From NCBI GenBank assembly GCA_007692585.1, contig REBU01000048.1:1-43960 (forward strand): a DNA stretch of 43,960 nt, written 5' to 3'. Below are positions 6,734-25,571 of this stretch, piece by piece. Position numbers and translations under genes: made by a program. Within the stretch, counting starts at the first letter, position 1. Every line of letters starts with the position of its first letter. The notes beneath the pieces are model-generated. The model did no database searches. It was given only the letters and a program-made list of their open reading frames with translations, and was not told the DNA's origin. This stretch comes from Paracoccaceae bacterium. Lineage in GTDB: Bacteria; Pseudomonadota; Alphaproteobacteria; Rhodobacterales; Rhodobacteraceae.

Positions 6734-6756
6734 GGTTTCTCCTCCGCGTGACATCT

Positions 6757-6764
6757 TGTATACA
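6757..6764. promoter_or_regulatory. TGTATACA palindrome, putative GntR operator, site 1
   Basis: A perfect 8-bp palindrome TGTATACA starts 24 bases upstream of the MTHFR-like start codon. The same word occurs at 6821, 24697, 24772 and 25564, all in front of genes of one proposed regulon. FadR/VanR-type GntR proteins bind palindromes of this general form. Binding by the GntR protein encoded at 24786-25511 is inferred. Confidence 0.7.
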
Positions 6765-6819
6765 TAAATCAGCGTAAAAATGCAAATAAATCCGCATTTG
6801 GCCGAATATTTCTCAGATT

Positions 6820-6829
6820 ATGTATACAT
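6820..6829. promoter_or_regulatory. ATGTATACAT palindrome, putative GntR operator, site 2
   Basis: A perfect 10-bp palindrome ATGTATACAT lies 64 bp (centre to centre) further upstream of the MTHFR-like gene, between it and the flotillin stop. Paired sites at the two catabolic loci suggest cooperative or looping repression; this is inference. Confidence 0.68.
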
Positions 6830-6838
6830 ACACCGGCA

Positions 6839-8380
6839 TCAGTCATCGCGGCTGCGGCGTCGGCCCGTATCATCATGACGCAGATCATCGCGCGCCCGCT
6901 CCAGAAGGCGGTTCAGGCCGGGCGCGTTGACCGTCTGTTCCAGAACACCTTCAAGCGCCTGCATAACGGCCCCGCGCGACCCTTCAACCGTGCCGACCTG
7001 CGTAATGTCGATCTTGCCGATCTTCTCGACAGGTTTGACCATTTCCGCAACGATTTTTGGCATCGCTTCCAACCGCGCGAGCTCGGCTTCATGGGCCAGC
7101 AATTCGGGCGACCTTTGATTCTCTGCGGCGATCCGTTCCTGCAATGCGGCAATCTGGGCTTGCTGGACCTTCAGCTGCGCCGCCGCTTCCAGTTCGGCGG
7201 TCTGCAGCTTCGCATCGGCAGATTTGCGCGCCGAGTCCACACCAATTTCGCTGCGGCGGGCGGCAGCTTCGGCTTCGGCTTCGGCGTGGACACGCGACAG
7301 GATGCGGCGGCGCTCTGCCTCGGCCTCGGCGCGGGCGGTCTCAACAGCTTCCTGCGCACGCACGGCTTCGGCGCGGCTCAGATCCGCTTCGGCCAGAGCG
7401 CGGCTTTCTTCCTGGCTTTTCGCCGCGATCGAGATGGCGCGGTCCTGTTCCGCAAGCTCCAAGGCGCGCGCGCGCAGAATCTCGGCTTCGCGGATCGCCT
7501 GTTCGCGGGCAATATCGGCTATCTGGATCCCCTGCTCCATCTGTATCCGTGCCTCGGCACTTGCGCGCTCGGCCTCGGCCTTGGCGCGGGCAACTTCTGC
7601 CAGCTGCGCCGAGATCAATGTTTCCACCTGCTGCGTCTGCGCGATCTCAGCGCGGCGTTCTTCCAGTTCAATATCGAGCTGTTTGCGCGCGGCCTCCATC
7701 GCGGCGCGACGCACGCTGACCTGAGTTTCCGACTCGATTTCGGCGCGTTCGCGCTTGGATTGGGCAATCACTTGCGCCAGCTTTCGCAGACCTTCGGCAT
7801 TGAACGCGTTGTTTTCATCAAGCGCCGCGAAAGGTGTCTGATCAAGCGCCGTCAATGCCACCGCATCGAGTTGCAACCCATATCCCGAAACGCTGGCACC
7901 CGCAGTCTCGCGGATGCTGGCCATGAATTCGGCGCGGCCTTCGTGCAACGCGTCCATGCTGCGCGTAGCGGCGACAGAACGCAGCGCATCGACGAAAATA
8001 CCTTCCAGCAATTCGCGCAGCTCGCTGGTCTGAAAACTGCGCCGTCCCAATGCCTGCGCAGCGCGGGCTATGCTGGCCTCGGTCGGCGGCACCGAGAGGT
8101 AGAACTCGGCCCCGACATCGATGCGCAGCTTGTCGCGCGTGATCAGTGACTGATCCCCGCGCCGCGCCACATCCAGACGAATGGTCTGCATGTTCACCCG
8201 CGTCACTTCGTGGAACCAAGGCAGCGCGAGCAAGCCCCCATCAATCACCACACGCCGCCCACCAATGCCGGTGCGCACAAGACTGACCGCGTTACTTGCG
8301 CGCTCGAAAAAGGCTGCCGCCAGGGCGATCAGCATAGCGAACAACACAATCAGCGCGATGATCCAGAAAATCACAGTCAT
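6839..8380 (-). CDS. Flotillin/SPFH-domain membrane protein
   Basis: A 513-residue protein with one N-terminal membrane segment (about residues 3-24, IFWIIALIVLFAMLIAL), an SPFH/Band-7 domain (about 25-190) and a long Ala/Glu/Arg-rich coiled coil (about 200-430), ending in a charged arginine-rich tail. This is the YqiK/flotillin architecture. Such proteins form oligomeric scaffolds at membrane microdomains. It is read in the same direction as the ABC-transporter operon and starts 31 bp after the SDR gene, so it appears to be the operon's last gene. A role in organising the transporter or in tolerance to membrane-active phenolics is conceivable but speculative. Confidence 0.88.
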   Translation of the reverse strand: MTVIFWIIALIVLFAMLIALAAAFFERASNAVSLVRTGIGGRRVVIDGGLLALPWFHEVTRVNMQTIRLDVARRGDQSLITRDKLRIDVGAEFYLSVPPTEASIARAAQALGRRSFQTSELRELLEGIFVDALRSVAATRSMDALHEGRAEFMASIRETAGASVSGYGLQLDAVALTALDQTPFAALDENNAFNAEGLRKLAQVIAQSKRERAEIESETQVSVRRAAMEAARKQLDIELEERRAEIAQTQQVETLISAQLAEVARAKAEAERASAEARIQMEQGIQIADIAREQAIREAEILRARALELAEQDRAISIAAKSQEESRALAEADLSRAEAVRAQEAVETARAEAEAERRRILSRVHAEAEAEAAARRSEIGVDSARKSADAKLQTAELEAAAQLKVQQAQIAALQERIAAENQRSPELLAHEAELARLEAMPKIVAEMVKPVEKIGKIDITQVGTVEGSRGAVMQALEGVLEQTVNAPGLNRLLERARDDLRHDDTGRRRSRDD

Positions 8381-8411
8381 CTCCTTGGTCCTTTCCGGCA
8401 GGTTTCGCGTA

Positions 8412-9176
8412 TCATAGTCCGTCGCGGCGGCAGAGCCTCTGCGCCGTCAGGCCGCCATCCGTGACCAGATTGGCCCCTGTCATCCCTCGCGACAGATCGG
8501 ATAGCAAAAAGAGCGCCGCATCAGCGGCAAGTAGCGTCCCGTTCGTTTCATAGTCTGCGCGCACGGCACATCGTGTCGGCGGCAAAGACCCGTCCGGGCT
8601 GGCAGGTGTCAGCGTATTGATCCGGATGCCCCGCCCGGCCAATGTCGCGCACTGCGCCATGGCCCAAGCATAAAGGGCCCAGCCAACCGTCTGCGACGTG
8701 CGCGCTGGGTCCAGATGCAGCCCCCAGCGCGGGATGAAGCTGTCCACACCTTCATGGCGCAGCGCCATGGCCGCGCGGATCTCGGGCAGGCTGTCCTCCC
8801 AATGTTGCGATACGGGTGCCCCGCGCATCACGATAGCCGCTCCGTGCGCCAGTCGTGGCGCCAGGCTCTGCGCCAACACGCGCGGCGCCAGCAAGCCGTG
8901 TATCAGCAGATCGCGCGGCGCATCACCGGGAAGCGCAGGCACAAAGGCCACGCCGTCCAAGCCCATTGGCAGAGCCTGCGCGACCTCCCCGAGCGCATCA
9001 GGATCAGCAAGATCCGCCCTGTAGAACGCGGCAACTGCCTCAAAATTCCGGTTCCGGTCTATGCCATGCACCTCCGCCCCCGCATTTTGCGCGGCCCGCG
9101 CGAGCGTCAGCCCCAACCCACCGGCCGAGCCGAGGATCGCGATACGCTTGCCAGAGAGGAGGGTCGACGGGGTCAT
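8412..9176 (-). CDS. SDR-fold protein lacking catalytic residues, coniferyl-alcohol-dehydrogenase-like
   Basis: A 254-residue short-chain dehydrogenase/reductase fold. The cofactor motif LGSAGGLG (about 16-23) and the later GRGIRIN segment and TDGG near the C-terminus are intact. Counting back from IRIN, the canonical YxxxK positions are occupied by SQTVG, so both catalytic Tyr and Lys are missing. The usual catalytic Ser region reads IVMRGAPVS. Overall pattern (AEVHGIDRN, then RADLADPDAL and LPMGLDGV) resembles the CalA coniferyl-alcohol dehydrogenase branch. It is 3 bp from the upstream ALDH gene, inside the ABC-transporter operon. It may be a non-catalytic binding protein, a diverged enzyme or a decaying gene; the frame is fully open. 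Confidence 0.78.
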   Translation of the reverse strand: MTPSTLLSGKRIAILGSAGGLGLTLARAAQNAGAEVHGIDRNRNFEAVAAFYRADLADPDALGEVAQALPMGLDGVAFVPALPGDAPRDLLIHGLLAPRVLAQSLAPRLAHGAAIVMRGAPVSQHWEDSLPEIRAAMALRHEGVDSFIPRWGLHLDPARTSQTVGWALYAWAMAQCATLAGRGIRINTLTPASPDGSLPPTRCAVRADYETNGTLLAADAALFLLSDLSRGMTGANLVTDGGLTAQRLCRRDGL

Positions 9177-9179
9177 GGC

Positions 9180-10652
9180 CTAGAAAACCGGCGGAAAGGG
9201 CCGCCCCCCGCGATCCAGCGTGATCCAGCGCGTTTCAGTGAAGGTTTCGACCGACCAGCGCCCGCCATGGCGGCCGAGCCCCGACGCCTTGGAGCCACCG
9301 AAAGGCACATGCGGTTCATCATTCACCGAGGAACAATTGACATGGCACATCCCGGTTTCGAGCTTGCGCGCCATCGCGAGCGCACGGGCCTCGTCACGCG
9401 TGATGATCCCGGCGGACAGGCCATATTCGGTGTCATTGTTCAGCGCGATGGCTTCGTCATCGGTCGCAAAAGGAATGACCGGGACGACCGGGCCAAAGGT
9501 TTCATCCTGATAGACCAGCATATCGGGCGTGACATTGGTCAGGATCGTGGGTTCAACAAAGCGCCCGTTTATTCCGCCCCCGACAACGACCTGCGCCCCC
9601 TTGGCCAGCGCATCATCAAGCTGCGCCTTCACCCGTGCCACTTGCCGGTCATTGATCAGCGGACCGATCACGTTGGCCTTGTCGGCCGTATCCCCGACTT
9701 TCAGTTTTGCTGCACGAGCTGCGAATTTCTCAAGGAATTCGTCAAAAATCCTCTCATGCACCAGCACTTTTTCAACACTCATGCAGATCTGGCCCTGATG
9801 CATGAAACTGCCGAAATTGGCGGCCTGTGTCGCACGCTCCATATCGGCATCGTCGAGAATAATCAGACTGTCCTTGCCACCCAGCTCAACACAGGCTTTC
9901 TTCAGATGCGCCCCGGCCTTGGCCGCGATGGCCCGGCCCACAGGGGTCGAACCGGTAAAGGACACGCCCTTGACCAGCGGATTTTCGACCAGTTCATCGC
10001 CCATTGCAGCCACGCCTTCGCGCGCGCATGTCACGACATTGAACACGCCCGCAGGGATGCCCGCTTCTTCCAGAACTTCGGCAAAGAAGATCCCACCGAG
10101 ATAGGGTGTGTCCTCGGAGGGTTTCAGAACGATGGTATTTCCCGCCGCCAGAGCGAAGGCAAAACCGCGTGCCGTCAGGATGCCGGGAAAATTCCACGGG
10201 CTGATGACCGAGATCACGCCCATCGCAAAGCGCTGCGCCGTGGACAGTTTGCCATATTCGCTGGGCAGGATTTCACCCGACGCCTGATAGCAACTGGCCG
10301 CAGCAGAGCGGAACACTTCGGGGATGTAATGCGCCTCGAACGCGCCCTTTCCGAACCAGCCACCGCCCTCGGCCTGCACGGCGGCGATGAAATCAGGCGC
10401 GCGGCGCTCGAACACGTCGGCGATGTGATGCACCAGTTTCGCGCGCTCGGTATATTTCAGCGCCGCCCAAGCCGGAAAAGCGCGATGCGCGGCTTCGATC
10501 GCGTCGCGAGCATCAGTTCCTGTGCCATCGGGTGCCTGAGCCCAGAGGCTGCCATCATTGGGATTGAGATCGGCAAAACTGCGTGCGGCCTGACGCCATT
10601 GGCCGTCGATATACATGCCGCGCAAGGTCTTGGGGGCTTTCCCATCGAGCAT
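9180..10652 (-). CDS. Aldehyde dehydrogenase, aromatic-aldehyde (vanillin/benzaldehyde) type
   Basis: A 490-residue aldehyde dehydrogenase. Glu256 in CVELGGKD and Cys290 in GQICMS are the catalytic pair; ISPWNFPG (150-157) and FTGSTPVGR (232-240) form the NAD site. The start at 10652 is chosen because AGGAG precedes it; the longer open frame reads into the ATPase gene and is not family-like. The stop of the upstream ATPase gene is one base away, so the two are translationally linked. Sequence style (SEYGKLSTAQRF, GQICMSVEKVLVH) resembles vanillin and benzaldehyde dehydrogenases. Together with the transporter it suggests that the imported compound is, or is converted to, an aromatic aldehyde. 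Substrate is inferred. Confidence 0.88.
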   Translation of the reverse strand: MLDGKAPKTLRGMYIDGQWRQAARSFADLNPNDGSLWAQAPDGTGTDARDAIEAAHRAFPAWAALKYTERAKLVHHIADVFERRAPDFIAAVQAEGGGWFGKGAFEAHYIPEVFRSAAASCYQASGEILPSEYGKLSTAQRFAMGVISVISPWNFPGILTARGFAFALAAGNTIVLKPSEDTPYLGGIFFAEVLEEAGIPAGVFNVVTCAREGVAAMGDELVENPLVKGVSFTGSTPVGRAIAAKAGAHLKKACVELGGKDSLIILDDADMERATQAANFGSFMHQGQICMSVEKVLVHERIFDEFLEKFAARAAKLKVGDTADKANVIGPLINDRQVARVKAQLDDALAKGAQVVVGGGINGRFVEPTILTNVTPDMLVYQDETFGPVVPVIPFATDDEAIALNNDTEYGLSAGIITRDEARALAMARKLETGMCHVNCSSVNDEPHVPFGGSKASGLGRHGGRWSVETFTETRWITLDRGGRPFPPVF

Positions 10653-10653
10653 T

Positions 10654-11835
10654 TCACATCTCCTTGTCGAATTCTGCCGAACCGGGGCGGCGGCGCCAGA
10701 CCTGAACCTTGCCAGGCTGAGCGGGTGCAGGTGAGGGCGGCGCGACAGCTTCCATGCGCGCTGACCCCGATGCGGACGCCCGATCACGGATGGACGGGCG
10801 CAGGGGCGGGAGGGCTGCATGGGCAGGGCCGGGCCGGGCCGGTGCACGTGCCTGACGCGCCGCGTCCTCAATCTGGGCCAACGCCGTGCGCAACCGGTCG
10901 TTTTGCGTCAAGGCGCGCGCGGGGCTCGCCCGCGCAGGGCCCTCGAGGGTGATCGTCCTTGGGGCGGGCCTGCGTATTGGCCGCGCACTTGCACGCGCGA
11001 GCAAAGCCGTCATATCCACCCCGGAAATGGCGGCGGCAGAGATGCTGCTGTTCGACTTGCCGCGCGGGATGACCGGGGCGGGTCTGGGAACGGCAGCAGG
11101 TGTGGGGCGGTTTTTTGTGCCACTGCCGCCAAGATAAGCGGCCTGCACAGCCGGGTCATTGCGCAATACCTCGGCGCGGTCTTCGCGCAGGATCTCGCCA
11201 TTTTCCAGCAGGTAGCCGCGATCTGCGATCCCCAGGCTGAGCCGCGCATTCTGTTCGACCAGCAATATTCCCAGACCTGCCGCTCGCACGGCCTTCAGGT
11301 TCTGGAACAACTCCTTGGACAACAAGGGCGACAATCCCAGCGATGGCTCGTCCAGCATGAGGATGACAGGGTTCGACATCATGGCGCGGCCGATGGCGAC
11401 CATCTGCTGTTCGCCACCGGACATGGTGCGCGCGATCTGGTTTGCGCGCTCTTCGAGCTTGGGAAACAGGCTGATCAGCCGGTCATAGGCCTGCGCCTGA
11501 TCTTCGCGCGCACGTTCCGGATTGGCCCCGAGCATAAGATTGTCCCGCACGCTCAGATCGCCAAAAATGCCGCGCCCTTCCGGCACCAGTGCGACGCCGC
11601 GCTCCACCACCTTATGCGGCGGCAAACCCAGCAGCGGTTCGCCCGACATCGTAACAGATCCGCTGACACGCCCTTCGCAAATGCCCGCGATGGATTTCAG
11701 CAGCGTCGATTTCCCTGCCCCGTTGGTGCCCAGAATGACCGCGATCTCGCCCGGCGCGACCTGCAAGGACGCTCCGTCAAGCGCGCGATGCTTGCCATAG
11801 GTGGCGCTCAATCCCTTGACCTCAAGCATCCTCAT
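10654..11835 (-). CDS. ABC transporter ATPase, LivF type, with long C-terminal extension
   Basis: Residues 1 to about 237 are a normal LivF ATPase: Walker A GTNGAGKS (36-43), signature MSGGEQQ (138-144), Walker B VILMLDEP (157-164) and the H-loop LVEQN (192-196), ending at QAAYLGG where LivF proteins usually stop. About 155 further residues (10657-11124) are rich in Ala, Pro and Arg and look disordered; they include RPAPRTITLEGPARASPARA. No domain was recognised there. The gene overlaps LivG by 14 bp; an ATG at 11829 is an alternative start. It powers uptake by the LivHM-type permeases encoded upstream. The extension is unusual for the family. Confidence 0.9.
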   Translation of the reverse strand: MRMLEVKGLSATYGKHRALDGASLQVAPGEIAVILGTNGAGKSTLLKSIAGICEGRVSGSVTMSGEPLLGLPPHKVVERGVALVPEGRGIFGDLSVRDNLMLGANPERAREDQAQAYDRLISLFPKLEERANQIARTMSGGEQQMVAIGRAMMSNPVILMLDEPSLGLSPLLSKELFQNLKAVRAAGLGILLVEQNARLSLGIADRGYLLENGEILREDRAEVLRNDPAVQAAYLGGSGTKNRPTPAAVPRPAPVIPRGKSNSSISAAAISGVDMTALLARASARPIRRPAPRTITLEGPARASPARALTQNDRLRTALAQIEDAARQARAPARPGPAHAALPPLRPSIRDRASASGSARMEAVAPPSPAPAQPGKVQVWRRRPGSAEFDKEM

Positions 11836-12559
11836 CAGCCCCCAGATAGGCGCGGATCACCTCCGGATCGGTCAGCACATCGGATGGTGTGCCTTCAGCG
11901 ATTTTTGCGCCCGACGACATGACAACGCAGCGGTCGCACAGGCTGCGGATCGCGTCCATGACATGCTCGACAAGGATGATCGTGCGTCCCTCGTCGCGCA
12001 GGGATCTGATCAGTTCGATGCCTGTCTGCAATTCGGTCGGGTTCAGCCCCGCGAGCCATTCATCGAGCAGCAGAACTTCGGGTTCGCCAGCCAGAGCCCG
12101 CGCCAGCTCGACGCGCTTGGTGTTGATATAGGTCAGGCTGGAGACGGCGGAAGTGATCTGCCCCCCCAGCCCCACGCGCTCCAGCAATTGCCGCGCGAAG
12201 CTCTCGGCCTCACGCCCCCAGCGCTTGCGGTGCCCGAATGCCGCCCCTGCGATCACGTTTTCGATCACGCTCAATTCCGGCAATAACCGCACCAGCTGAA
12301 ATGTCCGCGCCACGCCCTGACGCGCGATGCGATGCGCGGATGTGCCGGCAATGTCCTGACCGTTCAGACGGATTGCCCCGGCCGTCGGCGCAAAGGCCCC
12401 CGAGATCATATTGATCATCGTGGACTTGCCCGAGCCATTTGGGCCGATCAGGCCCAGAACCTCGTTGTGATGCACATCAAAGACCATCTCGCGCACGGCC
12501 ACCAGACCGCCGAAGCGTTTGGTCACGTCGCGCACCTCCAGAACCACCCGCGCCATCAC
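11822..12559 (-). CDS. ABC transporter ATPase, LivG type
   Basis: A 245-residue ATPase of the branched-chain amino acid/aromatic acid uptake family. Walker A is GPNGSGKST (about 39-47), Walker B is VLLLDEWLAG and the H-loop is LVEHV. The signature loop normally read as LSYGQQR is here LTYINTKRVELARAL, so the LSGGQ element is degenerate. In a two-ATPase system the LivF partner, which keeps MSGGEQQ, can complete one composite site. The gene overlaps the LivM permease by 4 bp and LivF by 14 bp. The annotated start gives two adjacent Met codons; either may be used. Confidence 0.9.
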   Translation of the reverse strand: MMARVVLEVRDVTKRFGGLVAVREMVFDVHHNEVLGLIGPNGSGKSTMINMISGAFAPTAGAIRLNGQDIAGTSAHRIARQGVARTFQLVRLLPELSVIENVIAGAAFGHRKRWGREAESFARQLLERVGLGGQITSAVSSLTYINTKRVELARALAGEPEVLLLDEWLAGLNPTELQTGIELIRSLRDEGRTIILVEHVMDAIRSLCDRCVVMSSGAKIAEGTPSDVLTDPEVIRAYLGADEDA

Positions 12560-13482
12560 CGCCCCCCTGATCCAAAACGGTGCTGCAGCCGCTCATAAAG
12601 GCCCACAAATCCCCCCGGCAGCACATAGACGATCAGCAGGAAGGCCAGCCCCAGCAGCAACAGCGTCTGGTTGGGCGCATTGCGTGAGATGAATTCCCAC
12701 AGCAGCGTGAAAGGGATAACGCCCGCCAAAGGCCCCCAAAGCCGCCCGGTCCCGCCGAGCAGCGCCATGATCACCACCTGAAATGACAGGATCGGGGCAA
12801 AGGCCGTCGAGGGCTCGATATAGATGTAGCGCGGGGCCATCATGGCACCGACTACCGCCGCGACTGCGCCTGAGATCATGAAGAGAAGGATTTTCGCCAT
12901 CGCCGTGTCGATGCCGGAATGCTTGGCGACAGTCTCATCATTGCCGATGATCCGCAGCGCAAAACCCATCCGCGAGCGCGCGATCAGCCAGCCCACCAGA
13001 AAAACCAGTGCGGCCATGGCGATCAATTGCCAGTAGATGTCCCGCTCGGTGATCGAGGTCAGCACATACATGCCGCGCTGGCCCGTGCGGTTTTGCACCC
13101 AGGTCACCAATTGGCGCACCAGTTCGGCCAGCCCCAGCGTGAAGATCACGAAATACACCCCCGACAGGCGAAGCGTGACCAGCCCGACCAGGGCCGCCAG
13201 CACGGCGCCCAGCCCCGCCGCGATCAGCGGGAGCATCCACATCGGCAATGTCTGAAATCCCAGCCCGGTCACAAAAGTACCCAGACCAAAGAAGGCCGCA
13301 GTTGCCAGCGAAATGTAATGCGTTGGGCCGGAAAACAGCGCCCAACTTGTCGCAAGCACTGTGAACATGGCCATGGTCGTGGCAATCGACAACAGATACC
13401 CAGTATCATAAAGCGGCAGCAGGGCCGCCAGCCCGAGGGCCGCCGAGGCCAGAGTCAGGTTGCGGAGATCGCGTTTGCTCAT
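12556..13482 (-). CDS. ABC transporter permease, LivM type
   Basis: A 308-residue inner-membrane permease with about 8-10 hydrophobic segments. LivM features are the central cytoplasmic loop LIARSRMGFALRIIGNDETV (with the EAA-like RSRMG.ALRAI pattern) and the later LGGTGRLWGPLAGVIPF segment. It pairs with the LivH-type permease encoded immediately upstream (4 bp overlap) and with the two ATPases downstream. The transported substrate is unknown; the operon's aldehyde dehydrogenase suggests an aromatic compound and not an amino acid. Confidence 0.93.
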   Translation of the reverse strand: MSKRDLRNLTLASAALGLAALLPLYDTGYLLSIATTMAMFTVLATSWALFSGPTHYISLATAAFFGLGTFVTGLGFQTLPMWMLPLIAAGLGAVLAALVGLVTLRLSGVYFVIFTLGLAELVRQLVTWVQNRTGQRGMYVLTSITERDIYWQLIAMAALVFLVGWLIARSRMGFALRIIGNDETVAKHSGIDTAMAKILLFMISGAVAAVVGAMMAPRYIYIEPSTAFAPILSFQVVIMALLGGTGRLWGPLAGVIPFTLLWEFISRNAPNQTLLLLGLAFLLIVYVLPGGFVGLYERLQHRFGSGGR

Positions 13483-14348: not shown

Positions 14349-14376
14349 CGCTCTCTCATTTTGTCTGGCAATGAAT

Positions 14377-14401
14377 GCGCGCGGAGAATGGGCCCGCGCG
14401 C
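14377..14401 (-). other. Intercistronic hairpin between binding-protein and permease genes
   Basis: An 8-bp GC-only inverted repeat (GCGCGCGG / CCGCGCGC, 9-base loop) lies in the 65 bp between the substrate-binding gene and the LivH gene. No T-run follows on the transcribed strand. Such hairpins often protect the 3' end of binding-protein mRNA or attenuate read-through, giving more binding protein than membrane subunits. Confidence 0.55.
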
Positions 14402-14413
14402 GCGGTTCTTGGA

Positions 14414-17589: not shown

Positions 17590-17598
17590 GGGGCGCGC

Positions 17599-19025: not shown

Positions 19026-20252
19026 TCACAAGGATCCGGCTTCCAGCGCGAGAAAACGCAGAAAATCAGTATGCAGGCTGCCAGGCCGGTGGCCTTTCAG
19101 TTCCGTGATCCCGATTTCGCGTTCGGCCCCGTCCAACGCAATATACAATGGGACGATCAAGCCCTGTTCGATCTCATAACTGATCTGGTTCATGGACATC
19201 AGGGCAAGCGCATCCGAGGCAAGCAGCACACCGCGCAACACCACCAGAGATCCTGTCTCGACCTGGCCGTGCGACCTGGCCGACAGATCATGCGCGCACG
19301 CCAAAGCGTCAAACACACGGCGGGCAGGCGCATCGCGGCGCGGGACAATCCACGGAAATGCCCCAAGATCGCGGGCCGCATTCGCGCGCCCGACCAGCGG
19401 GTGGCCTGCGCGTGCGACAACACGCAAGCAATCCGAGAACAACCGACGCTCGCACAGATCTTGCTCGGCCTCATCATTGCGCAAGGCGCCGACAATCACA
19501 TCGCACGCCCCCAATCGCAACCTGTGCAGCAGGAATTCGTAGGACCCGTCCAGGATCTCCAGCCGGGCGGCGGGATATGCCTTCAGCAACCGGACCACGG
19601 CACGCGGCACAATCTGCGTGCGCGCCAAGGGCAGCGCGCCAATGACCAACCGACTGTCGAAAATGCCTTTGCGCTCGCGCAATTCGGCATGTGCGAGGTC
19701 GATCTCGCGCAGGGCCAGACTGGCGCTGGTGGCCACACGCGCGCCCGCGTCACTGAGGCTGCGATTGCGCTGCCCACCTTCCATTACGGGCTGACCGATG
19801 ATCCGCTCGACATCCTTGACCGCCCGTCGGACCGAAGCCTCTGTCTGCCCCAAAGCCTGAGCGGTTGCACTGGTGCTGCCGCTCAAGGCAAGAAGTGCCA
19901 TGACGCGCAGATGTGTCATGCTGCTGTAGCGTTCCAGCAGATCATCGCGGCTCTGGCGCGCCCGCGCGCGCGGCACCAACGCAGGGTCGCGCAAATGCAA
20001 AAGCGCGCGACTTGCGCGCTCGGTCACAAGCCTGCCCTCTGGTGTCGCGATGGCAGCATTGCCGACCCGTTCCAGCAAGGGCGCACCAAAGATCCGCGCC
20101 AGTTTCGCAATGGCCTGCGATGCCGCAGGCTGGGAGATGGCGACCTGCTGCGCGGCGCGCGTCAGCGAATTTTCCCGCGCTGCGATCTCAAGCAAACGCA
20201 GATGGCGAAGATTGGGCCAATCAGGCGTTGAGGGATGCATGGGGACGGACAT
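19026..20252 (-). CDS. LysR-family regulator with two HTH domains
   Basis: A 408-residue protein, about 100 residues longer than a normal LysR regulator (~300). Residues ~14-65 form a classical LysR HTH (LRLLEIAARENSLTRAAQQV, then SQPAASQAIAKLA). Residues ~113-165 form a second, diverged HTH of the same type (LRVMALLALSGSTSATAQAL, then TEASVRRAVKDVERIIGQPV). The effector-binding domain begins near RLVIGALPLARTQIVPRAV (about 200) and runs to the end. The ATG at 20252 is close to the first HTH and fits the family. It is divergent from the TSUP/ThDP-enzyme genes (289 bp) and upstream of TRAP system 1 on the same strand; either or both could be targets. Confidence 0.85.
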   Translation of the reverse strand: MSVPMHPSTPDWPNLRHLRLLEIAARENSLTRAAQQVAISQPAASQAIAKLARIFGAPLLERVGNAAIATPEGRLVTERASRALLHLRDPALVPRARARQSRDDLLERYSSMTHLRVMALLALSGSTSATAQALGQTEASVRRAVKDVERIIGQPVMEGGQRNRSLSDAGARVATSASLALREIDLAHAELRERKGIFDSRLVIGALPLARTQIVPRAVVRLLKAYPAARLEILDGSYEFLLHRLRLGACDVIVGALRNDEAEQDLCERRLFSDCLRVVARAGHPLVGRANAARDLGAFPWIVPRRDAPARRVFDALACAHDLSARSHGQVETGSLVVLRGVLLASDALALMSMNQISYEIEQGLIVPLYIALDGAEREIGITELKGHRPGSLHTDFLRFLALEAGSL

Positions 20253-20541
20253 TTTCGGGTGGACCTGTCGTATTGTTCATTGCACGCCTTGACAGCTGCA
20301 CTGGGATGAGAGGTGACCGCTCGCTCGACGATATCCGACATTCGAAGGCTGCAAGAGTTATAAGAAAAACGTATCAGCGTGCGATGGATCGGGCAAGCTT
20401 TGAAAATAACCCCATCACCTGCATGAAAAAACCACTCGGTAAAGTCATTCGCCCGATATTTTTCCAGGCGGGGCGTCGACTTGCAACCCGGCGCAGTCTC
20501 GGCAACTGTGCACCAACGAAGGCAAACGTGATGAGGCCCTC
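20253..20541. promoter_or_regulatory. Divergent LysR/TSUP intergenic region
   Basis: This 289 bp region between the two-HTH LysR gene and the TSUP permease must carry both promoters. It has an AT-rich stretch around 20356-20380 and another near 20400-20460. No convincing T-N11-A LysR box or other repeat could be picked by eye, and no gene was recognised. Confidence 0.4.
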
Positions 20542-21273
20542 TTGAGCTTGGTTCTGGCCGCGCTGGCAATTTTGCTTGGCGGCGTCATGAAAGGTGCAAT
20601 TGGCGCAGGCGTGCCGGTGATTGCGGCGCCCGCGCTGACGATGCTGTTCAATGTGCAGACGGCGGTGGCGATCCTCGTTGTGCCCAATCTGCTCAGCAAT
20701 CTCTGGCAGGCATGGCACTTCCGCAGCGAGGCGATGCCGCGCCGGTTTCTTCTGCTCTTTGCAGGCGGCGGGATGCTGGGCGTCGCTGTCGGCACCTTGG
20801 TGTTGGCGGTGCTGCCCCAAGATACGCTGTCGCTGATGGTCGCATGCGCGGTGATCATCTACATCGCGCTGCGTCTTGCGCGCCCGGGCTGGACGCTTGC
20901 GCGTGAACGCGCAACCAGGCTCTGCGGGGCCGCGGGCATTGCCGGAGGGTTCCTGCAGGGGGCGACGGGCATCTCGGCCCCAGCCTCGATCACGTTTTTG
21001 AACGCCATGAAACTGCCGCGCGGCACATTCATCGGCACAATTTCGATCTTTTTCGTGTCGATGACCGCAATGCAGATCCCCGCGCTGTGGAGTGTGGGGC
21101 TGCTGAGCCTCGAGATGCTGATCTATGGGTTTGGCGCGCTGGGGCTCGTCTTTCTGGGCATGCCACTGGGCAACTGGCTGGGCGAGCGCGCCTCTCCGAA
21201 GGTATTCGACATGGTGATGCTGGTCACACTCGGCGCGATAGCGGTCAAGATCCTGTTCGAGGCAATCGTCTAG
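20542..21273 (+). CDS. TSUP (TauE/SafE) family membrane permease
   Basis: A 243-residue membrane protein with about eight hydrophobic segments arranged as two similar halves. The TSUP signatures are GGVMKGAIGAGVPVIAAPAL near the N-terminus and its repeat GGFLQGATGISAPASITFLN in the second half. TSUP proteins export or import sulfite, sulfonates or small organic anions. The start is a TTG at 20542; no in-frame ATG exists before the first membrane segment, and GAGG lies close upstream. It is followed by a transporter remnant and a ThDP-dependent enzyme on the same strand, so it may export or import the substrate or product of that enzyme. The substrate is unknown. Confidence 0.85.
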   Translation: MSLVLAALAILLGGVMKGAIGAGVPVIAAPALTMLFNVQTAVAILVVPNLLSNLWQAWHFRSEAMPRRFLLLFAGGGMLGVAVGTLVLAVLPQDTLSLMVACAVIIYIALRLARPGWTLARERATRLCGAAGIAGGFLQGATGISAPASITFLNAMKLPRGTFIGTISIFFVSMTAMQIPALWSVGLLSLEMLIYGFGALGLVFLGMPLGNWLGERASPKVFDMVMLVTLGAIAVKILFEAIV

Positions 21274-21289
21274 CCAGAAGGTGTCCGGC

Positions 21290-21455
21290 ATGATGGTCGT
21301 CGAGACCTTGCTTCCCATTTTCGCGGTGATCGGGATCGGATGGGCCTGCGTGCGCGCAGGGGCAACTGGCCGCAATCGGGCTGATGATCGAGACCTCGGC
21401 CAGTTTCGCCACCTTGTCGCTTGTTCTTTTATTTCTGGGGCTAACCGGCCCCTGA
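21290..21455 (+). pseudogene. AEC-family (auxin efflux carrier-like) transporter, internally deleted remnant
   Basis: An ATG at 21290 opens MMVVETLLPIFAVIGIGWAC, the characteristic first membrane segment of AEC permeases (normally ~300 residues). After about 25 codons the frame ends in non-family sequence. In another frame, LAAIGLMIETSASFATLSLV continues to a TGA at 21453-21455 and looks like the last membrane segment of the same family. The two ends are joined near 21360, so roughly 250 codons seem to have been lost with a frame change. The remnant lies between the TSUP gene and the ThDP enzyme, in their orientation. Its assignment rests on two short hydrophobic segments. Confidence 0.6.
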
Positions 21456-21473
21456 CACACCTGGGAGATGCAG

Positions 21474-23171
21474 ATGACCGACACCGCAATCAGCGCTGGG
21501 GCCGCCCTTCTGGCGCGGCTGAAAACTGTGGGGGTGGATGTCATCTTCGCCAATTCCGGCACGGATTTCCCGCCCATCATCGAAGGGTTGTCTGAGGCCA
21601 CCGCGAAAGACATTCCCTTGCCCCGGACCCTGACCATCCCGCATGAACATGCCGCGATGGGAATGGCGCATGGCTATTATCTGGCCACCGGGCGCGCGCA
21701 AGCGGTCATTGCCCATACCGATGTGGGGCTGGCCAATTGCGCCATTGGCGCGCTGAATGCCCATGTCGAGCATGTGCCGATCCTGTTGTTTTCAGGCCGC
21801 ACCCCCACGCTGGAAAAGGGCCGGTTCGGCGCACGCACAGTGCCTATCGGTTGGGGTCAGGAAATGCGCGACCAGAGTGCGCTGGTGCGTGAGGCGTCAA
21901 AATGGGATTACGAACTGCGCTTCCCGGAGCAGGTGCCGGACCTGGTCGACCGCGCGCATGCGATCGCCTCGTCCAGTCCGCGCGGCCCGGTCTATGTGTC
22001 ACTGCCGCGCGAGGTGCTTTGCGCGCCCTGCCCGATTGACCTTCTGCAGACCGCCCCCCGCATGCGCGGGCATGGCCTTCATGCAGCCCCTGACGATTTT
22101 GCGGATCTGGCCGCACGCATTGCCAGAGCACGCGCGCCCGTGATCTTTGCCCAGCACGGCGCAGGCTCTGCCGAAGGCTTTGCGGCGCTCGCGCGGATTT
22201 CCGCACGTTGGGCGATCCCAGTCTGCCAGTATTGGGCGGGTCAACTGGCTTTGGCGACGGATCACCCGATGTGCACAAGCTGGGATCCCGCGCCGCTGCT
22301 GGCCGAGGCCGACCTGGTGATCTGCCTCGATGTGCTGGCGCCCTGGATGCCCGAGATCCACGCCCCGCGCCGCGATGCCTGCGTCGTCCAGCTTGGCCCC
22401 AACCCGCTCTCGATCCGCACACCGATCCGCAACTTCCGCGCGGATCTGACACTTGCCGCAGATACAGCGCCGGCCCTGATCGCGCTGGAGCAGGCCCTGA
22501 ACGCGCATCAACCAGATGCCGATGTGAGCGCGCGGTTTGAGCGCGTTGCCGCGCGCAATCAGCAAGCCCGCGCAGACGCCATCGCAGCAGCCGCGCCCGA
22601 TGACGCGCCGGGCATGACCAAGGCACAGATCGCACGCGCCCTCTCTGACGCGCTGGAGGGCGAGAGCGCCACGATCCTGTCTGAACTGGGCTGCCCCATG
22701 CCGCCGATGCGCCTGACCCATCATCAGGCTTGGTATCAGGAACCCCATGCGGGGGGCCTTGGATGGTCCCTGCCTGCGGCGATGGGGATGCAGCTTGCCG
22801 ATCCAGACCGGTTGGTGATCGCGACGATGGGGGATGGCAGCTACATGTTCGCCAATCCTGTCGCCTGCCATCAGATCGCCGAGGCGCTGTCGCTGCCGGT
22901 CCTGATCATTGTTATGAACAATGCCGAGTGGGGCGCGGTGCGCCAATCAGTTCTGGGCCTCTACCCCGATGGCCATGCGGCGCGCGCCAATCAGATGCCC
23001 CTGACCGGGCTTCAGCCCAGCCCGGATTTCGCGCTTGTCGCGCGCGCGTCACACGCACTGGGGCTGCGCGCGCAAAGCCATGGCGAGTTTGTGCAGATGC
23101 TGGATCAGGCGCTGGCCCATGTCCGGGCGCGCAAAGGGGCGGCTCTGATCGATGTGCGCACGCGGCCCTGA
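21474..23171 (+). CDS. ThDP-dependent decarboxylase/acetolactate-synthase-like enzyme
   Basis: A ~565-residue three-domain ThDP enzyme. The N-terminal PYR domain has the cofactor-activating Glu58 in IPHEHAAMGMAHGYY. The middle domain has AQHGAGSAEGF. The C-terminal PP domain has the metal/ThDP motif MGDGSYMFAN, with a downstream IIVMNN. Its pattern suits the benzoylformate decarboxylase/acetolactate synthase superfamily; the exact reaction is not identifiable. ATG codons at 21468 and 21474 are both possible; GGGAG at about 21462 favours the first only slightly. Its neighbours are a TSUP permease, a transporter scar and a divergent LysR gene. An aromatic 2-keto acid such as phenylglyoxylate is one candidate substrate, given the region. 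It is convergent with the LigM-like gene. Confidence 0.85.
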   Translation: MTDTAISAGAALLARLKTVGVDVIFANSGTDFPPIIEGLSEATAKDIPLPRTLTIPHEHAAMGMAHGYYLATGRAQAVIAHTDVGLANCAIGALNAHVEHVPILLFSGRTPTLEKGRFGARTVPIGWGQEMRDQSALVREASKWDYELRFPEQVPDLVDRAHAIASSSPRGPVYVSLPREVLCAPCPIDLLQTAPRMRGHGLHAAPDDFADLAARIARARAPVIFAQHGAGSAEGFAALARISARWAIPVCQYWAGQLALATDHPMCTSWDPAPLLAEADLVICLDVLAPWMPEIHAPRRDACVVQLGPNPLSIRTPIRNFRADLTLAADTAPALIALEQALNAHQPDADVSARFERVAARNQQARADAIAAAAPDDAPGMTKAQIARALSDALEGESATILSELGCPMPPMRLTHHQAWYQEPHAGGLGWSLPAAMGMQLADPDRLVIATMGDGSYMFANPVACHQIAEALSLPVLIIVMNNAEWGAVRQSVLGLYPDGHAARANQMPLTGLQPSPDFALVARASHALGLRAQSHGEFVQMLDQALAHVRARKGAALIDVRTRP

Positions 23172-23231
23172 TGGGCTTGCGACCATCCTGGCCGCACGGC
23201 CCCGCCCCTTCGGCCCAGCCAAACATTTCAG

Positions 23232-23255
23232 GCCGGGGCAATGATTTGCCCCGGC
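23232..23255. terminator. Bidirectional hairpin between convergent genes
   Basis: A perfect 10-bp inverted repeat GCCGGGGCAA / TTGCCCCGGC with a 4-base TGAT loop lies in the 94 bp between the ThDP-enzyme and LigM-like stop codons. It would form on transcripts from either side. Flanking T-runs are short, so terminator strength is uncertain, but the position is right for both genes. Confidence 0.65.
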
Positions 23256-23265
23256 AAAAGCGTTG

Positions 23266-24672
23266 TCAATTGCCCTTGGTGCGCCAACTATCCGCATAAT
23301 TTTCCCGCGCTTCGGCCGCGTAGGGTGTTTCCGCCACACGCACGCGGATTTCCGTCTGCTTATGCGCCTCGGTCGAGGTTTTGCCCGTGGTTTCCGGCTC
23401 GCCCCATTTCAGGGTCAGCACGTCATTGACCTGCACTGATTGTTCAACGACCCCGAGGCTCAGGACACAGCGTTCATTGAAGCTGTAGCCGTTGAACATG
23501 GACATGCCCACCATCTTGTCGCCCTGCATCACCATATCGGCGCTGGAGGACGCGTAGTTGGGCTGCGGGAAGTCGATCCACTTGTAGGGCGTGCCCTGCT
23601 CGAAAGCCGAGGCGATCACCTTGAGCACGTCGTCACGGTTCCACTCGAAGGTGACCTTTTTGCGGTTCGTAGGCGCGCCTTTTATCTGGGTCAGCGCCGC
23701 CTTGCCGATGAAGTCGTCTTTTTTCCACCCGATATAGAAGCCATAGCCCAGTTCGAACGGGTTGACGTAATAATCCTCGATATTGTCCGACACGAAGCTG
23801 CCACCTATCGCGCCCGAGGCTTCATAGCTGTCTGCGCCCAACCAGTCGCGGTAATCGGCCAGCATCCCGTCGCCGGTATAGATGCCGGGCAAGGGTGACG
23901 GAATCCAGCCTGATTCCAGCGTGTTGGTGGAATAGGCGCGGCTGCCGCATTGCACCAGATTGACGCCTGCATCGCGCGCGGCCTGCAAGATGGTTGAATG
24001 GATGTAATCCTTGTCCTTGTATGGACCCCAGATTTCCAGCCCCGGCGCACCCGACATGCCATGGCGCAGCGCCTGGACCTTCTTCGAGCCGATATTGATC
24101 CAGTCGACATGGAAGAACTTGATCTCCGGCACCGGCCCGCCGTTCATCTTCTCGAAAATCTTCGGCGCATCCGGCCCCTGGATCTGGAAGCGGTAATGTT
24201 CGCGCAGCACGCGCTCACCCTCAGGGCGCGACGGCGAGCGGGGATCATAGCGCAGGCGGACATTCCACTTGCCATAGGCCGCCGCGAACATCAGCCAGTT
24301 CGAGGTCGGTGCCCGACCAACAAGAATGTATTTGTCCTCGCGCTCGCGAAAGATGATGTGATCGCCGATGACGTGCCCATTGGGCGTGACCGGCACGAAA
24401 TGTTTGGCGCGGTTCAGCTCGAAATTCGAGAAACTGTTGATGCCGTGATGGCTGAGAAATTCTGTCGCCTGCGGTCCCTCGACGATCACTTCATCCATGT
24501 GATGCGACTGGTCAAACAGCACCGCTGTCTTGCGCCAGGCTTCCTGTTCAGCACGCCAGTTCATGAATTCCGGCGCGACAACCGGGTAGACATACATCCC
24601 GGTTTTTGAGTTGCGCAGCATTTGTACCGGATTGCCCGCAGCAGCCATTGCCGTGGTCAGACTCTGTGTCAT
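23266..24672 (-). CDS. Tetrahydrofolate-dependent aryl O-demethylase, LigM/DesA type
   Basis: A 468-residue GcvT-fold protein that closely follows Sphingobium LigM (471 residues). LigM moves the methyl group of vanillate or 3-O-methylgallate to tetrahydrofolate, giving protocatechuate or gallate and 5-methyl-THF; DesA does so with syringate. Shared stretches include YVYPVVAPEF (27-36), VLFDQSHHM (51-59), PVTPNGHVIGD (94-104), GSRAYSTNTLESGWIPSPLP (243-262) and EASGAIGGSFVS. Tyr247, Arg120 and Tyr27 correspond to residues recalled as important in LigM. GAGGGGGGAG precedes the ATG. Two TGTATACA palindromes lie upstream, and the GntR gene precedes it on the same strand. The fold also includes DmdA and glycine-cleavage T-proteins, but the motif match favours LigM/DesA. 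Vanillate versus syringate is unresolved. Confidence 0.9.
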   Translation of the reverse strand: MTQSLTTAMAAAGNPVQMLRNSKTGMYVYPVVAPEFMNWRAEQEAWRKTAVLFDQSHHMDEVIVEGPQATEFLSHHGINSFSNFELNRAKHFVPVTPNGHVIGDHIIFREREDKYILVGRAPTSNWLMFAAAYGKWNVRLRYDPRSPSRPEGERVLREHYRFQIQGPDAPKIFEKMNGGPVPEIKFFHVDWINIGSKKVQALRHGMSGAPGLEIWGPYKDKDYIHSTILQAARDAGVNLVQCGSRAYSTNTLESGWIPSPLPGIYTGDGMLADYRDWLGADSYEASGAIGGSFVSDNIEDYYVNPFELGYGFYIGWKKDDFIGKAALTQIKGAPTNRKKVTFEWNRDDVLKVIASAFEQGTPYKWIDFPQPNYASSSADMVMQGDKMVGMSMFNGYSFNERCVLSLGVVEQSVQVNDVLTLKWGEPETTGKTSTEAHKQTEIRVRVAETPYAAEARENYADSWRTKGN

Positions 24673-24693
24673 GACGACTCCCCCCTCATGAAA

Positions 24694-24707
24694 TCATGTA
24701 TACATGA
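24694..24707. promoter_or_regulatory. TCATGTATACATGA palindrome, putative GntR operator, site 3
   Basis: A perfect 14-bp palindrome, TCATGTATACATGA, with the shared core TGTATACA at 24697-24704, is centred about 28 bp upstream of the LigM-like start codon. That position would cover the promoter or early transcribed region. It is the longest of the six related sites and a likely repressor site for the neighbouring GntR protein. Confidence 0.72.
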
Positions 24708-24770
24708 AATACGAAATACGCCCGGGCCAATCAAGAAAAAACCGCGAGGAGCGCAGGAATTTTCAAATCT

Positions 24771-24780
24771 ATGTATACAT
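24771..24780. promoter_or_regulatory. ATGTATACAT palindrome, putative GntR operator, site 4
   Basis: A perfect 10-bp palindrome ATGTATACAT, just after the gntR stop and 75 bp (centre to centre) from site 3. The two-site layout matches that in front of the MTHFR-like gene (64 bp spacing). Confidence 0.7.
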
Positions 24781-24785
24781 TAATT

Positions 24786-25511
24786 TCAGTCCGCCACCAA
24801 AGCGAGGCTAGCAATGCCTTCGCGGCGACTGCCTTCATCTGACAAGAGAAACTCGACATTGCGGCGCGCGGCGCGGGCATGCTCGCGGGCCAATGCCTCG
24901 GCCCGACCGCTTTCGCGCGCCGTAATCGCGTCGAGAATCGCGCAATGCTGCGCCTGCGCAACGATCAGGGTGCGCTGGAGCGTGTCAAGGCGGTCGTGAT
25001 CCTCGAGGAACGCCGACGGGGCGGCGAAGGGCAAAGCGGTGATACGGTCCAATTCGCGTTGCAGCGTCGCACTTTGCGCCATCGCGGCAAGCTGGACATG
25101 AAACGCCGTGTTCAACCGCGCATAGGCTTCCATATTGATCGACGGCCCCGCAAGCACAAGGTCGATCTCGCGCAGCGTTGTGCGGGCTTGCGCCAGAGCG
25201 TCCGGGCTGGCACCGCGCTCAGCAGCATAGCGCGCCGCGGTACCTTCGAGCACGCCGCGCAGGTCAATCGTATCGACAACATCGCTCAACGCGAAGCTGC
25301 GCACAACGAAGCCCGCGCCCGCGCCGCGCTCGAGCAACCCCTCCTCGGCCAGCCGCGAAAGGGCGGCACGGATTGGCGTGCGCGAAATCTTCAGATCCTC
25401 GGCCAGCGCAACTTCGTAAAGCCGCGTTCCGCCCGGAAGCGCGCCACTGAGGATGCGCTGGCGCAAGCCCAACAGCGCTTTCTGCGTTTGTGTCAGCGAT
25501 TCATCTGCCAT
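24786..25511 (-). CDS. GntR-family regulator, FCD (FadR/VanR) subfamily
   Basis: A 241-residue regulator. The N-terminal winged HTH (about 5-70) has the family pattern ILSGALPGGTRLYEVALAED followed by SRTPIRAALSRLAEEGLLER. The all-helical FCD effector domain follows, with DLRGVLEGTAARYAAERG and the metal/effector histidine region NTAFHVQLAAMA. The start at 25511 is preferred because AGGTGG precedes it; a longer frame from 25559 would cover the upstream palindrome. TGTATACA-type sites flank it and occur in front of the LigM-like and MTHFR-like genes. It is therefore the prime candidate for an aromatic-responsive repressor of O-demethylation and methyl-THF recycling, comparable to VanR. Ligand unknown. 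Confidence 0.88.
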   Translation of the reverse strand: MADESLTQTQKALLGLRQRILSGALPGGTRLYEVALAEDLKISRTPIRAALSRLAEEGLLERGAGAGFVVRSFALSDVVDTIDLRGVLEGTAARYAAERGASPDALAQARTTLREIDLVLAGPSINMEAYARLNTAFHVQLAAMAQSATLQRELDRITALPFAAPSAFLEDHDRLDTLQRTLIVAQAQHCAILDAITARESGRAEALAREHARAARRNVEFLLSDEGSRREGIASLALVAD

Positions 25512-25528
25512 AGCCACCTGCCGCATAA

Positions 25529-25536
25529 TGTACACA
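25529..25536. promoter_or_regulatory. TGTACACA, one-mismatch relative of the GntR operator, site 5
   Basis: TGTACACA differs from TGTATACA by one base and lies 17 bp upstream of the chosen gntR start. It is 35 bp (centre to centre) from site 6. It may be a weaker site for autoregulation; alone it would not be convincing. Confidence 0.45.
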
Positions 25537-25563
25537 TTCCAGACTACGCCCATTCGCACCGGA

Positions 25564-25571
25564 TGTATACA
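25564..25571. promoter_or_regulatory. TGTATACA palindrome, putative GntR operator, site 6
   Basis: A perfect TGTATACA lies between the TRAP system 2 dctM stop and gntR, upstream of the chosen gntR start. With site 5 it gives the gntR gene its own pair of sites, consistent with autoregulation. Confidence 0.65.

Follow-up and report, generated by a model that had tools for sequence, protein, structure and literature searches.

A predicted Atu1419-type GntR regulon joins ligM, gntR and a distant MTHFR-type unit in a Paracoccaceae bacterium

The ligM and gntR genes of the contig analyzed here (REBU01000048.1; the window is the whole stretch of 43,960 nucleotides) and an MTHFR-type unit 18 kb away are predicted to form one GntR regulon, and this assignment is well supported by the comparisons described below. 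The layout is a new arrangement of the Agrobacterium repressor–operator system. It is likely that the whole explanation holds, namely that a repressor orthologous to Atu1419, with 5,10-methylene-THF as effector, acts through looped operator pairs and that both loci are coexpressed. The relevant features are the following, where the gene starts used (ATG 6733 for MTHFR and ATG 25511 for gntR) are from our own reading and are not those of the longest ORFs.

3847..4344, minus strand, GNAT acetyltransferase, third gene of the MTHFR unit (Pfam Acetyltransf_3, 81.9 bits)
4352..5815, minus strand, aldehyde dehydrogenase, second gene of the MTHFR unit (Pfam Aldedh)
5840..6733, minus strand, MTHFR-type gene (PDB 7xg9, E 1e-47)
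6756..6765, candidate operator, MTHFR-proximal, TTGTATACAT, 24 bp before the MTHFR ATG
6820..6829, candidate operator, MTHFR-distal, exact ATGTATACAT, 88 bp before the MTHFR ATG and 64 bp from the proximal one
23266..24672, minus strand, ligM, THF-dependent vanillate/3-O-methylgallate O-demethylase (NCBIfam NF047885, PDB 5tl4/5x1i)
24696..24705, candidate operator, ligM-proximal, exact ATGTATACAT, 25 bp before the ligM ATG
24742..24756, minus strand, terminator-like stem-loop and T run between gntR and ligM (consensus match)
24771..24780, candidate operator, ligM-distal, exact ATGTATACAT, 100 bp before the ligM ATG and 75 bp from the proximal one
24786..25511, minus strand, gntR, Atu1419-type GntR/FCD (VanR group) repressor, 241 aa (Pfam GntR and FCD)
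25528..25537, candidate operator, gntR-proximal, ATGTACACAT, one change, 18 bp before the gntR ATG
25563..25572, candidate operator, gntR-distal, ATGTATACAG, one change, 53 bp before the gntR ATG and 35 bp from the proximal one

A preceding sequence-only reading had reported six palindromic sites before these three genes and none at other promoters of the window, and both statements are confirmed. The motif TGTATACA occurs exactly at 6757, 6821, 24697, 24772 and 25564, with the near-match TGTACACA at 25529, and a search of the whole window with the GT..AC core fixed and up to two mismatches to the 10-mer ATGTATACAT returns the same six places and no others. The five exact copies compare with a mean of 0.02 in shuffled sequences, none of the 100 shuffles reaching five. 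ATGTATACAT thus precedes the regulator, MTHFR and O-demethylase genes, being exact at MTHFR and ligM. The genome scan proposed in the same reading (3.26 Mb, 116 contigs, 97.97% complete) finds TGTATACA in nine places, five of them in the window, versus six for the reversed control pattern; three of the other four lie inside ORFs (C77:4835, C30:15719 and C109:111571), and the fourth (C77:4067) is located 157 bp before another GntR gene. The exact 10-mer has three genome occurrences, all within the window, and allowing one mismatch gives 16 places (six in the window; control pattern, six), the context having been examined for the C77 one among the 10 outside.

The sites are conserved across relatives. 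When gntR–ligM loci are picked by LigM similarity alone, TGTATACA precedes gntR, ligM or both in 90 of 91, and the sole exception (L094) is cut at a contig edge. Of the 207 sites in 102 relative loci, 201 are no more than 250 bp upstream of ligM, gntR or MTHFR, versus at most 4 such sites, and 0.4 on average, for 63 control palindromes; these counts overstate the significance because related loci are not independent. Twelve ligM loci have no gntR beside them; six of these still bear sites, and five having 1500 bp of sequence are without one. The outer bases of the candidate operator underwent a single change, which coincides with one GntR subclade. The 10-mer is present two to four times in all 13 ligM-positive genomes tried; it was rejected as a marker of ligM genomes, since one or two copies are also present in G002, G013, G015, G016 and G023, five of the 17 genomes in which no LigM match reaches E 1e-100. 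This last observation, together with the shortness and general GntR type of TGTATACA, is what speaks for a chance or structural repeat without regulatory role, which is extremely improbable when considering the enrichment in the window, the rarity in the genome, the 90 of 91 loci, the control palindromes and the identity to the proven operator of A. fabrum (PMC7797058).

The identity of LigM, as first read from the sequence, is supported by the NCBIfam equivalog NF047885 (623.8 bits, cut-off 580) and by the PDB matches 5tl4/5x1i (E about 2.5e-160); the DesA model is not reached (546.2 versus 800 bits). The assignment of the distant gene as MTHFR-like is also supported, by 7xg9. The classic MetF models are not satisfied (TIGR00676, 22.4 bits for a cut-off of 293.7; PF02219, 15.7 for 24) and the protein is placed by its sequence in a divergent branch near 7xg9, so that the gene is named MTHFR-type and not classic MetF. 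We take 7xg9 to be S6MTHFR of Sphingobium SYK-6. The window protein is only a homologue of S6MTHFR, 7xg9 being its closest solved structure; S6MTHFR oxidizes methyl-THF to methylene-THF after LigM (PMC12585457, a conference abstract). The aldehyde dehydrogenase reaches no cut-off among the best 25 of 41 NCBIfam models, and its PDB matches are generic. The gene order MTHFR–aldehyde dehydrogenase–GNAT is kept in seven of seven clade relatives, and the placement of this unit 18 kb off, under its own candidate operator pair, is new.

The genome holds a second MTHFR copy (C79:298-1122). In the clade, the MTHFR orthologous to that of the window has a site in eight of eight genomes and the paralogue in none of eight; among 23 two-copy genomes, the operator is found at exactly one copy in 13 and at both in none. 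One of two MTHFR copies would thus be wired into the regulon and the other not. Most MTHFR genes are without operator: a site within 250 bp is seen at 19 of the 94 genes examined, of which 13 belong to the 46 in two-copy genomes and 6 to the other 48, and nine ligM-linked MTHFR copies have none. In two sister species (L263 and L264), a second Atu1419-type gene, gntR2, adjoins MTHFR, and an operator pair precedes an ABC operon; a search of the stretch before this operon found no operators in two further relatives (L280 and L103).

The regulator had been read as an FCD/VanR-type GntR protein, which is borne out by Pfam (GntR and FCD) and by its best PDB match, 6z74 (Atu1419; E 7.5e-67 over residues 6-241, the next match having E 1e-13). 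The identity to Atu1419 is 51.7% over 236 aligned residues, and the window protein is, on these alignments, its orthologue. All six DNA-contact residues (R31, E34, S44, R45, T46 and R49) are kept, and the main-chain contact H9 is replaced by Q; among 89 GntRs, R31 is present in 88 and the other five in all. The pocket/metal residues R86, Y133, N137, H141, H214 and N221 are kept in the window protein, as are S169 and R183. Of the pocket/metal residues, R86, Y133, N137, H141, H192 (presumably the third metal histidine) and H214 occur in 89 of 89 GntRs, and N221 in 85. Two residues that in Atu1419 contact one orientation of the ligand are more variable: K175 is H in the window protein and varies widely among GntRs, and R183 is found in 19 of the 38 proteins of class a, most of those in class b having another residue there. 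The contacts of the AD/BC tetramer of Atu1419 (loop 123-125, residues 186 and 190) also vary among GntRs, several named contact residues differing in the window protein. Because of this variation in K175, R183 and the AD/BC contacts, the effector and the tetramer are less than certain.

It is conceivable, and rather improbable, that two regulators share the motif, ligM being controlled by the window GntR and the MTHFR unit by another, for example that encoded at C77:4224-4940. The C77 gene is a GntR/FCD gene preceded by a CTGTATACAA site and keeping the helix contact residues, and gntR2 adjoins MTHFR in the two sister species. The C77 protein was rejected as an orthologue, being 37% identical, without Y133 and N221, and surrounded by unrelated genes. 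All three other GntR matches of the genome (E <= 1e-8) are 34-39% identical, those on C15 and C53 being at 39% and 34%; the assembly, at 98% completeness, may also lack a further gene.

According to the report on A. fabrum C58 (PMC7797058), Atu1419 binds ATGTATACAT, represses itself, MTHFR and the vanillate O-demethylase, and has 5,10-methylene-THF as effector, the evidence for this unstable compound being from this one paper. The Atu1419 regulon (SpG8-1b region; GntR/FCD, VanR group, 6z74) shares with the window the orthologous regulator, the identical ATGTATACAT and the targets, which are the regulator, MTHFR and THF-dependent vanillate O-demethylase genes. The A. fabrum genes lie in a single cluster, and the distances between its sites are 190 bp and 109 bp (PMC7797058), whereas here MTHFR is 18 kb away and has a pair to itself, the aldehyde dehydrogenase and GNAT genes come after it, and the pair spacings are 64, 75 and 35 bp. 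The nearby acyl-CoA synthetase, enoyl-CoA hydratase, SDR and MarR genes resemble the A. fabrum hydroxycinnamate cluster by family only. The single regulon proposed by the sequence-only reading is therefore retained for ligM, gntR and the distant MTHFR unit. Its claim that the arrangement is undescribed needs restriction: a literature search found, among the matches listed, no Rhodobacteraceae description of regulator, operator and targets, but the regulator type, operator and three targets are known in Agrobacterium. Control of uptake is not retained, as none of the six sites (operators with up to two changes searched) precedes a TRAP or ABC operon; the TRAP genes (25603-28681) read toward gntR from upstream.

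The effector had been proposed to be a methoxylated aromatic or its product, which is probably wrong. An aromatic effector (vanillate, syringate or protocatechuate) of the same GntR regulon is unlikely because the orthologue Atu1419 answers to 5,10-methylene-THF and needs its MTHFR for full induction (PMC7797058); Atu1419 is also the nearest solved relative by a wide margin (7.5e-67 versus 1e-13), with most pocket residues conserved. For VanR of Caulobacter and Acinetobacter, also a GntR repressor of vanillate demethylation, we know of no folate link. The aromatic reading draws on DesR of Sphingobium SYK-6, where vanillate and syringate release DesR from ligM, and on VanR, on which vanillate acts in Caulobacter and Corynebacterium (PMC6888825). 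VanR controls vanAB, a Rieske-type oxygenase, with vanillate as effector in Caulobacter (PMC6888825), and DesR, as predicted for the window GntR, joins LigM and MTHFR under one repressor. DesR is a MarR protein unrelated to the window GntR, and its targets ligM and metF lie in one operon (ligM-metF-ligH; PMC6888825); membership of the DesR regulon was rejected, the ligM neighbor being GntR/FCD and not MarR.

With methylene-THF as effector, GntR dimers would bind the 10-mer and repress. On a methoxylated aromatic such as vanillate, basal LigM would pass the methyl group to THF, and the MTHFR-type enzyme, working in the oxidizing direction, would convert methyl-THF into 5,10-methylene-THF. This would enter the GntR pocket and release the DNA, so that both loci would be expressed together, giving more demethylation and regenerated THF. 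The source bacterium is related to Roseinatronobacter, and by analogy it would probably sense a folate intermediate and not a plant aromatic. Control of aromatic demethylation by a repressor responding to a folate intermediate, found in one organism, would thereby extend to many Rhodobacteraceae. The inducer to be expected is then a one-carbon signal and no longer an aromatic, a point of importance for sensors and lignin-conversion strains built from these parts.

The GntR protein is probably a tetramer, as is Atu1419, and could then hold two operators of one promoter at once, with a short loop at ligM and MTHFR at least. Across relatives, operator pairs mostly hold whole-helical-turn spacing, which is new. 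Of the 54 pairs spaced 45-100 bp, 50 deviate by no more than 2 bp from a multiple of 10.5, a range that covers 39% of integers, and almost all spacings are 52, 62-65, 73-76 or 83-85 bp, in unrelated promoters; phased pairs occur at ligM, MTHFR and gntR promoters. The loci in these pair counts are not independent; for the distinct spacing values a uniform test gives p = 0.006. Periods of 9.5 to 11.5 fit about equally, and a spacing of 47 bp falls out of phase. The pair at the window gntR promoter is 35 bp apart (3.3 turns); within its class, most gntR promoters show spacings of 13-14 or 35-36 bp. That the paired operators are independent sites, the spacing bracketing the promoter without tetramer looping, is credible but doubtful. 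One palindrome suffices for binding in A. fabrum (PMC7797058), 62-65 bp could bracket a -35/-10 region, and at MTHFR the distal operator shares bases with a weak -10-like hexamer; against this stand the clustering of the spacings in unrelated promoters and the looping by the Atu1419 tetramer seen by electron microscopy (PMC7797058). With confidence close to even, if just short of it, we suggest that a GntR tetramer sensing methylene-THF acts in Rhodobacteraceae and some related bacteria as a repressor via short, phased operator pairs (about 5, 6, 7 or 8 turns) at several unrelated promoters, in a rewirable regulon that reads the one-carbon pool. Rewiring would add or lose phased pairs, as for MTHFR–aldehyde dehydrogenase–GNAT in the clade and for the ABC uptake operon and second gntR in the two sisters. 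The 90 natural operator sets are available for testing short-loop repression.

The ligM gene is apparently transcribed alone, the next gene being convergent. The stem-loop between gntR and ligM, weak evidence with one match found versus 0.2 expected, suggests that ligM may have its own promoter. The promoter scan, which was given no weight as evidence, gave no sigma-70-like match at ligM or gntR and one weak match, at MTHFR. Two MarR genes lie farther from ligM than its GntR/FCD neighbor.

The best solved match of the window GntR is Atu1419, the GntR/FCD repressor of Agrobacterium fabrum (PDB 6z74, E 7.5e-67; next match, E 1e-13), with 51.7% identity over 236 aligned residues. According to PMC7797058, Atu1419 is a tetrameric repressor that binds ATGTATACAT; it represses atu1418 (MTHFR), atu1420 (THF-dependent vanillate O-demethylase) and its own gene, and N5,N10-methylene-THF releases it from DNA, whereas THF and methyl-THF do not. 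Electron microscopy in that study showed loops joining sites at a distance of 190 bp, and binding was lost when G3 and C8 of the operator were changed. The window GntR keeps the side-chain DNA contacts of Atu1419 and most ligand-site residues, with K175 replaced by H. Among 89 GntRs (the 91 adjacent to ligM minus L109, which has a stop in the reading frame, and L094, which is cut by the contig edge), R86, Y133, N137, H141, H192 and H214 never change, N221 is present in 85, and K175 and R183 vary. A single gene of the Atu1419 type is present in the genome; the three other matches at E <= 1e-8 show 34-39% identity. The finding is filed as a further case of an Atu1419-type system, in which the regulator kind is already known and the gene layout is new. 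In a search outside which most subscription papers lie, no paper joining LigM, GntR and Rhodobacteraceae was found, LigM and Rhodobacteraceae gave one paper naming each once, and TGTATACA with GntR was found solely in PMC7797058; for the letters ATGTATACAT, no other GntR paper was seen by title among the matches listed (best 10 of 44).

The genes concerned are as follows.

5840-6733: MTHFR-type protein, distant from the classic MetF models and similar to PDB 7xg9 (E 1e-47)
6839-8380: flotillin-like gene, on the MTHFR strand and preceding MTHFR
21468-23171: TPP enzyme, converging on ligM
23266-24672: LigM, above the NCBIfam equivalog cut-off for vanillate/3-O-methylgallate O-demethylase, with a PDB 5tl4/5x1i match
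24786-25511: GntR, with GntR and FCD domains

Behind MTHFR, on its strand, follow an aldehyde dehydrogenase gene and a GNAT gene (gaps of 24 and 7 bp), and the two MTHFR operators are located between the flotillin-like gene and MTHFR. Because the TPP enzyme gene converges on it, ligM stands alone; a terminator-like hairpin is found between gntR and ligM. Among the best 80 of 337 named matches, LigM is most similar to records of Natronohydrobacter and Roseinatronobacter.

Five copies of TGTATACA and the one-mismatch TGTACACA are present where the sequence-only reading had placed them, and a scan of the 43,960 bases for ATGTATACAT, allowing up to two changes with the GT..AC core fixed, returns exactly these six. 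The whole genome (3.26 Mb) has nine copies of TGTATACA, five in the window, which is a complete contig, and all three exact copies of the 10-mer ATGTATACAT are in the window. With one mismatch, the 10-mer is found at 16 genome places, six in the window; one of the ten outside places was examined. Of the four outside copies of TGTATACA, three are within ORFs and one is on contig C77 (L025:4067, as CTGTATACAA), 157 bp before a different GntR/FCD gene (4224-4940), which makes cross-talk possible.

LigM is found at E <= 1e-100 in 43 of 295 family genomes, including this one. The comparison set of 103 distinct loci (window included, LigM identity at least 55%, 17 duplicates removed) was drawn from 39 loci of family genomes (L058-L096; L097, at 43% identity, was left out) and the best 80 of 337 named ligM loci, picked by LigM similarity without use of the sites. 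An adjacent gntR is present in 91 of them, and in 90 of these TGTATACA lies before gntR, in the gntR-ligM gap, or at both places, the sole exception being L094, cut at its contig edge. Among the 12 loci lacking an adjacent gntR, sites occur in six (L115, L131, L170, L173, L083 and L087), and for L122 just 34 bp are in hand. In the other five, L162, L172 and L175 (Silicimonas MAGs), L129 and L093, no operator occurs within 1500 bp, as if gntR and operators had been lost together. The 102 relative loci (1.83 Mb) contain 207 copies of TGTATACA, and 201 of them are located at most 250 bp before a ligM, gntR or MTHFR gene, whereas 63 control palindromes of equal G+C content have a mean of 0.4 and a maximum of 4 copies in the same stretches; the loci being related, no formal probability is attached to this comparison.

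The central claim of the sequence-only reading, that the MTHFR gene 18 kb away belongs to the ligM/gntR regulon, is supported by its orthologues. Besides the window copy, the genome has one more MTHFR-type gene, at C79:298-1122. Seven Natronohydrobacter/Roseinatronobacter-type relatives have orthologues of the window copy (70-83% identical), all followed by the ALDH and GNAT genes. At least one exact operator is present at this copy in 8/8 genomes, window included, and at the C79-type copy in 0/8 (for L247, the upstream stretch is 271 bp). Of 23 two-copy genomes, 13 have the operator at a single copy and none has it at both; nine more have one ligM-linked copy that lacks its own operator and may belong to the ligM transcription unit or lie near it, and G301 has neither operator nor ligM-linked copy. 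Six of the 48 remaining MTHFR genes have an operator, and operator control therefore characterizes some lineages and not the whole family. The genomes of the two MTHFR surveys overlap in part. Roseinatronobacter sp. HJB301 has the ligM and MTHFR loci on a single contig with about 20 kb between them, which shows this split in an isolate as well. Rhizobium sp. L1K21 has a much more distant MTHFR-type gene (L235, 31%) with an operator pair 85 bp (about eight turns) apart, and a ligM without adjacent gntR (L115) with a pair 75 bp apart.

By orthology with the Atu1419 system, basal LigM would generate methyl-THF, which the MTHFR-type enzyme would oxidize to methylene-THF, a reaction reported for SYK-6 (PMC12585457), and methylene-THF would release the GntR repressor, such that both loci rise together. 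The main rival is the same GntR regulon with an aromatic as effector, as first proposed for this DNA; PMC6888825 describes DesR, an unrelated regulator, as working by an aromatic effector, and the nearest solved relative, Atu1419, responds to methylene-THF. With methylene-THF as inducer, made by enzymes of the regulon, the regulon's own product would provide positive feedback, reading the demethylation flux and not the aromatic.

The operator pairs in the window are spaced by 64 (MTHFR), 75 (ligM) and 35 bp (gntR). Across the loci, pairs between gntR and ligM are spaced by 64-65 or 74-76 bp, those at MTHFR promoters by 62, 64, 64, 64, 73, 85 and 35 bp, and those before ligM without neighbouring gntR by 74, 75 and 378 bp. 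Among the 54 pairs of 45-100 bp, 50 deviate from a multiple of 10.5 by at most 2 bp (chance expectation, 39%; p = 0.006 with each distinct spacing counted once), a fit that does not single out 10.5 among periods of 9.5-11.5. The recurrence of common spacings at several unrelated promoters argues for a geometric need, most simply that both dimers of a tetramer would have to sit on one face of the DNA.

The gntR-ligM loci fall into two classes. In class a (39 loci), operators also occur between gntR and ligM, the outer base is A in 168 of 212 half-sites, and the gntR promoters have short spacings, mostly 13-14 and 35-36 bp, outside the helical pattern, which may work by simple occlusion. In class b (51 loci, operon-type), operators occur solely before gntR, spaced by 62-63 bp in 28 of 33 cases (also 52, 73, 83, 105 and 136), a TRAP transporter is often behind ligM, and the outer base is C in 69, T in 53, A in 40 and G in 6 of 168 half-sites. 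All 51 class b GntRs fall in one clade (support 1.0), and the GntR tree, with the C77 protein as root, has a single class change. The two classes also have different wing residues (64-66), which would be a testable reason for the differing outer base.

Uptake had also been placed under this control, but in the window no operator precedes a TRAP operon or the ABC operon (scan with up to two changes). In two sister species, HJB301 and coassembly_bin.17, the ABC operon, which reads toward MTHFR, is preceded by an operator pair (L277:3079-3150, 62 bp; L278:3471-3544, 64 bp) whose second member has two changes. Uptake can thus apparently join this regulon elsewhere, and not in the window as far as its bases indicate. 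Both species have an extra Atu1419-type gntR2 beside MTHFR (L263:4327-5031, L264:7715-8419). Leftover operators of relatives near a TRAP operon (L086:254-344), a TauE/SafE permease gene (L088:7071) and an ABC binding-protein gene (L170:9576) hint at further uptake genes in the regulon elsewhere.

Near ligM (28647-35691), genes for an acyl-CoA synthetase, an SDR, two MarR proteins, an enoyl-CoA hydratase, an amidohydrolase and an acyl-CoA dehydrogenase resemble, by family, a hydroxycinnamate pathway that would feed vanillate. A PcaQ-like LysR protein of 408 aa (19026-20252) has two tandem LysR-type helix-turn-helix stretches (Pfam HTH_1 twice, the PcaQ model from residue 113), and its homologues in L277, L103 and L099 align over nearly the whole length. 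The ornithine-lipid genes olsA and olsB are at 39177-40912, both above the NCBIfam equivalog cut-offs.
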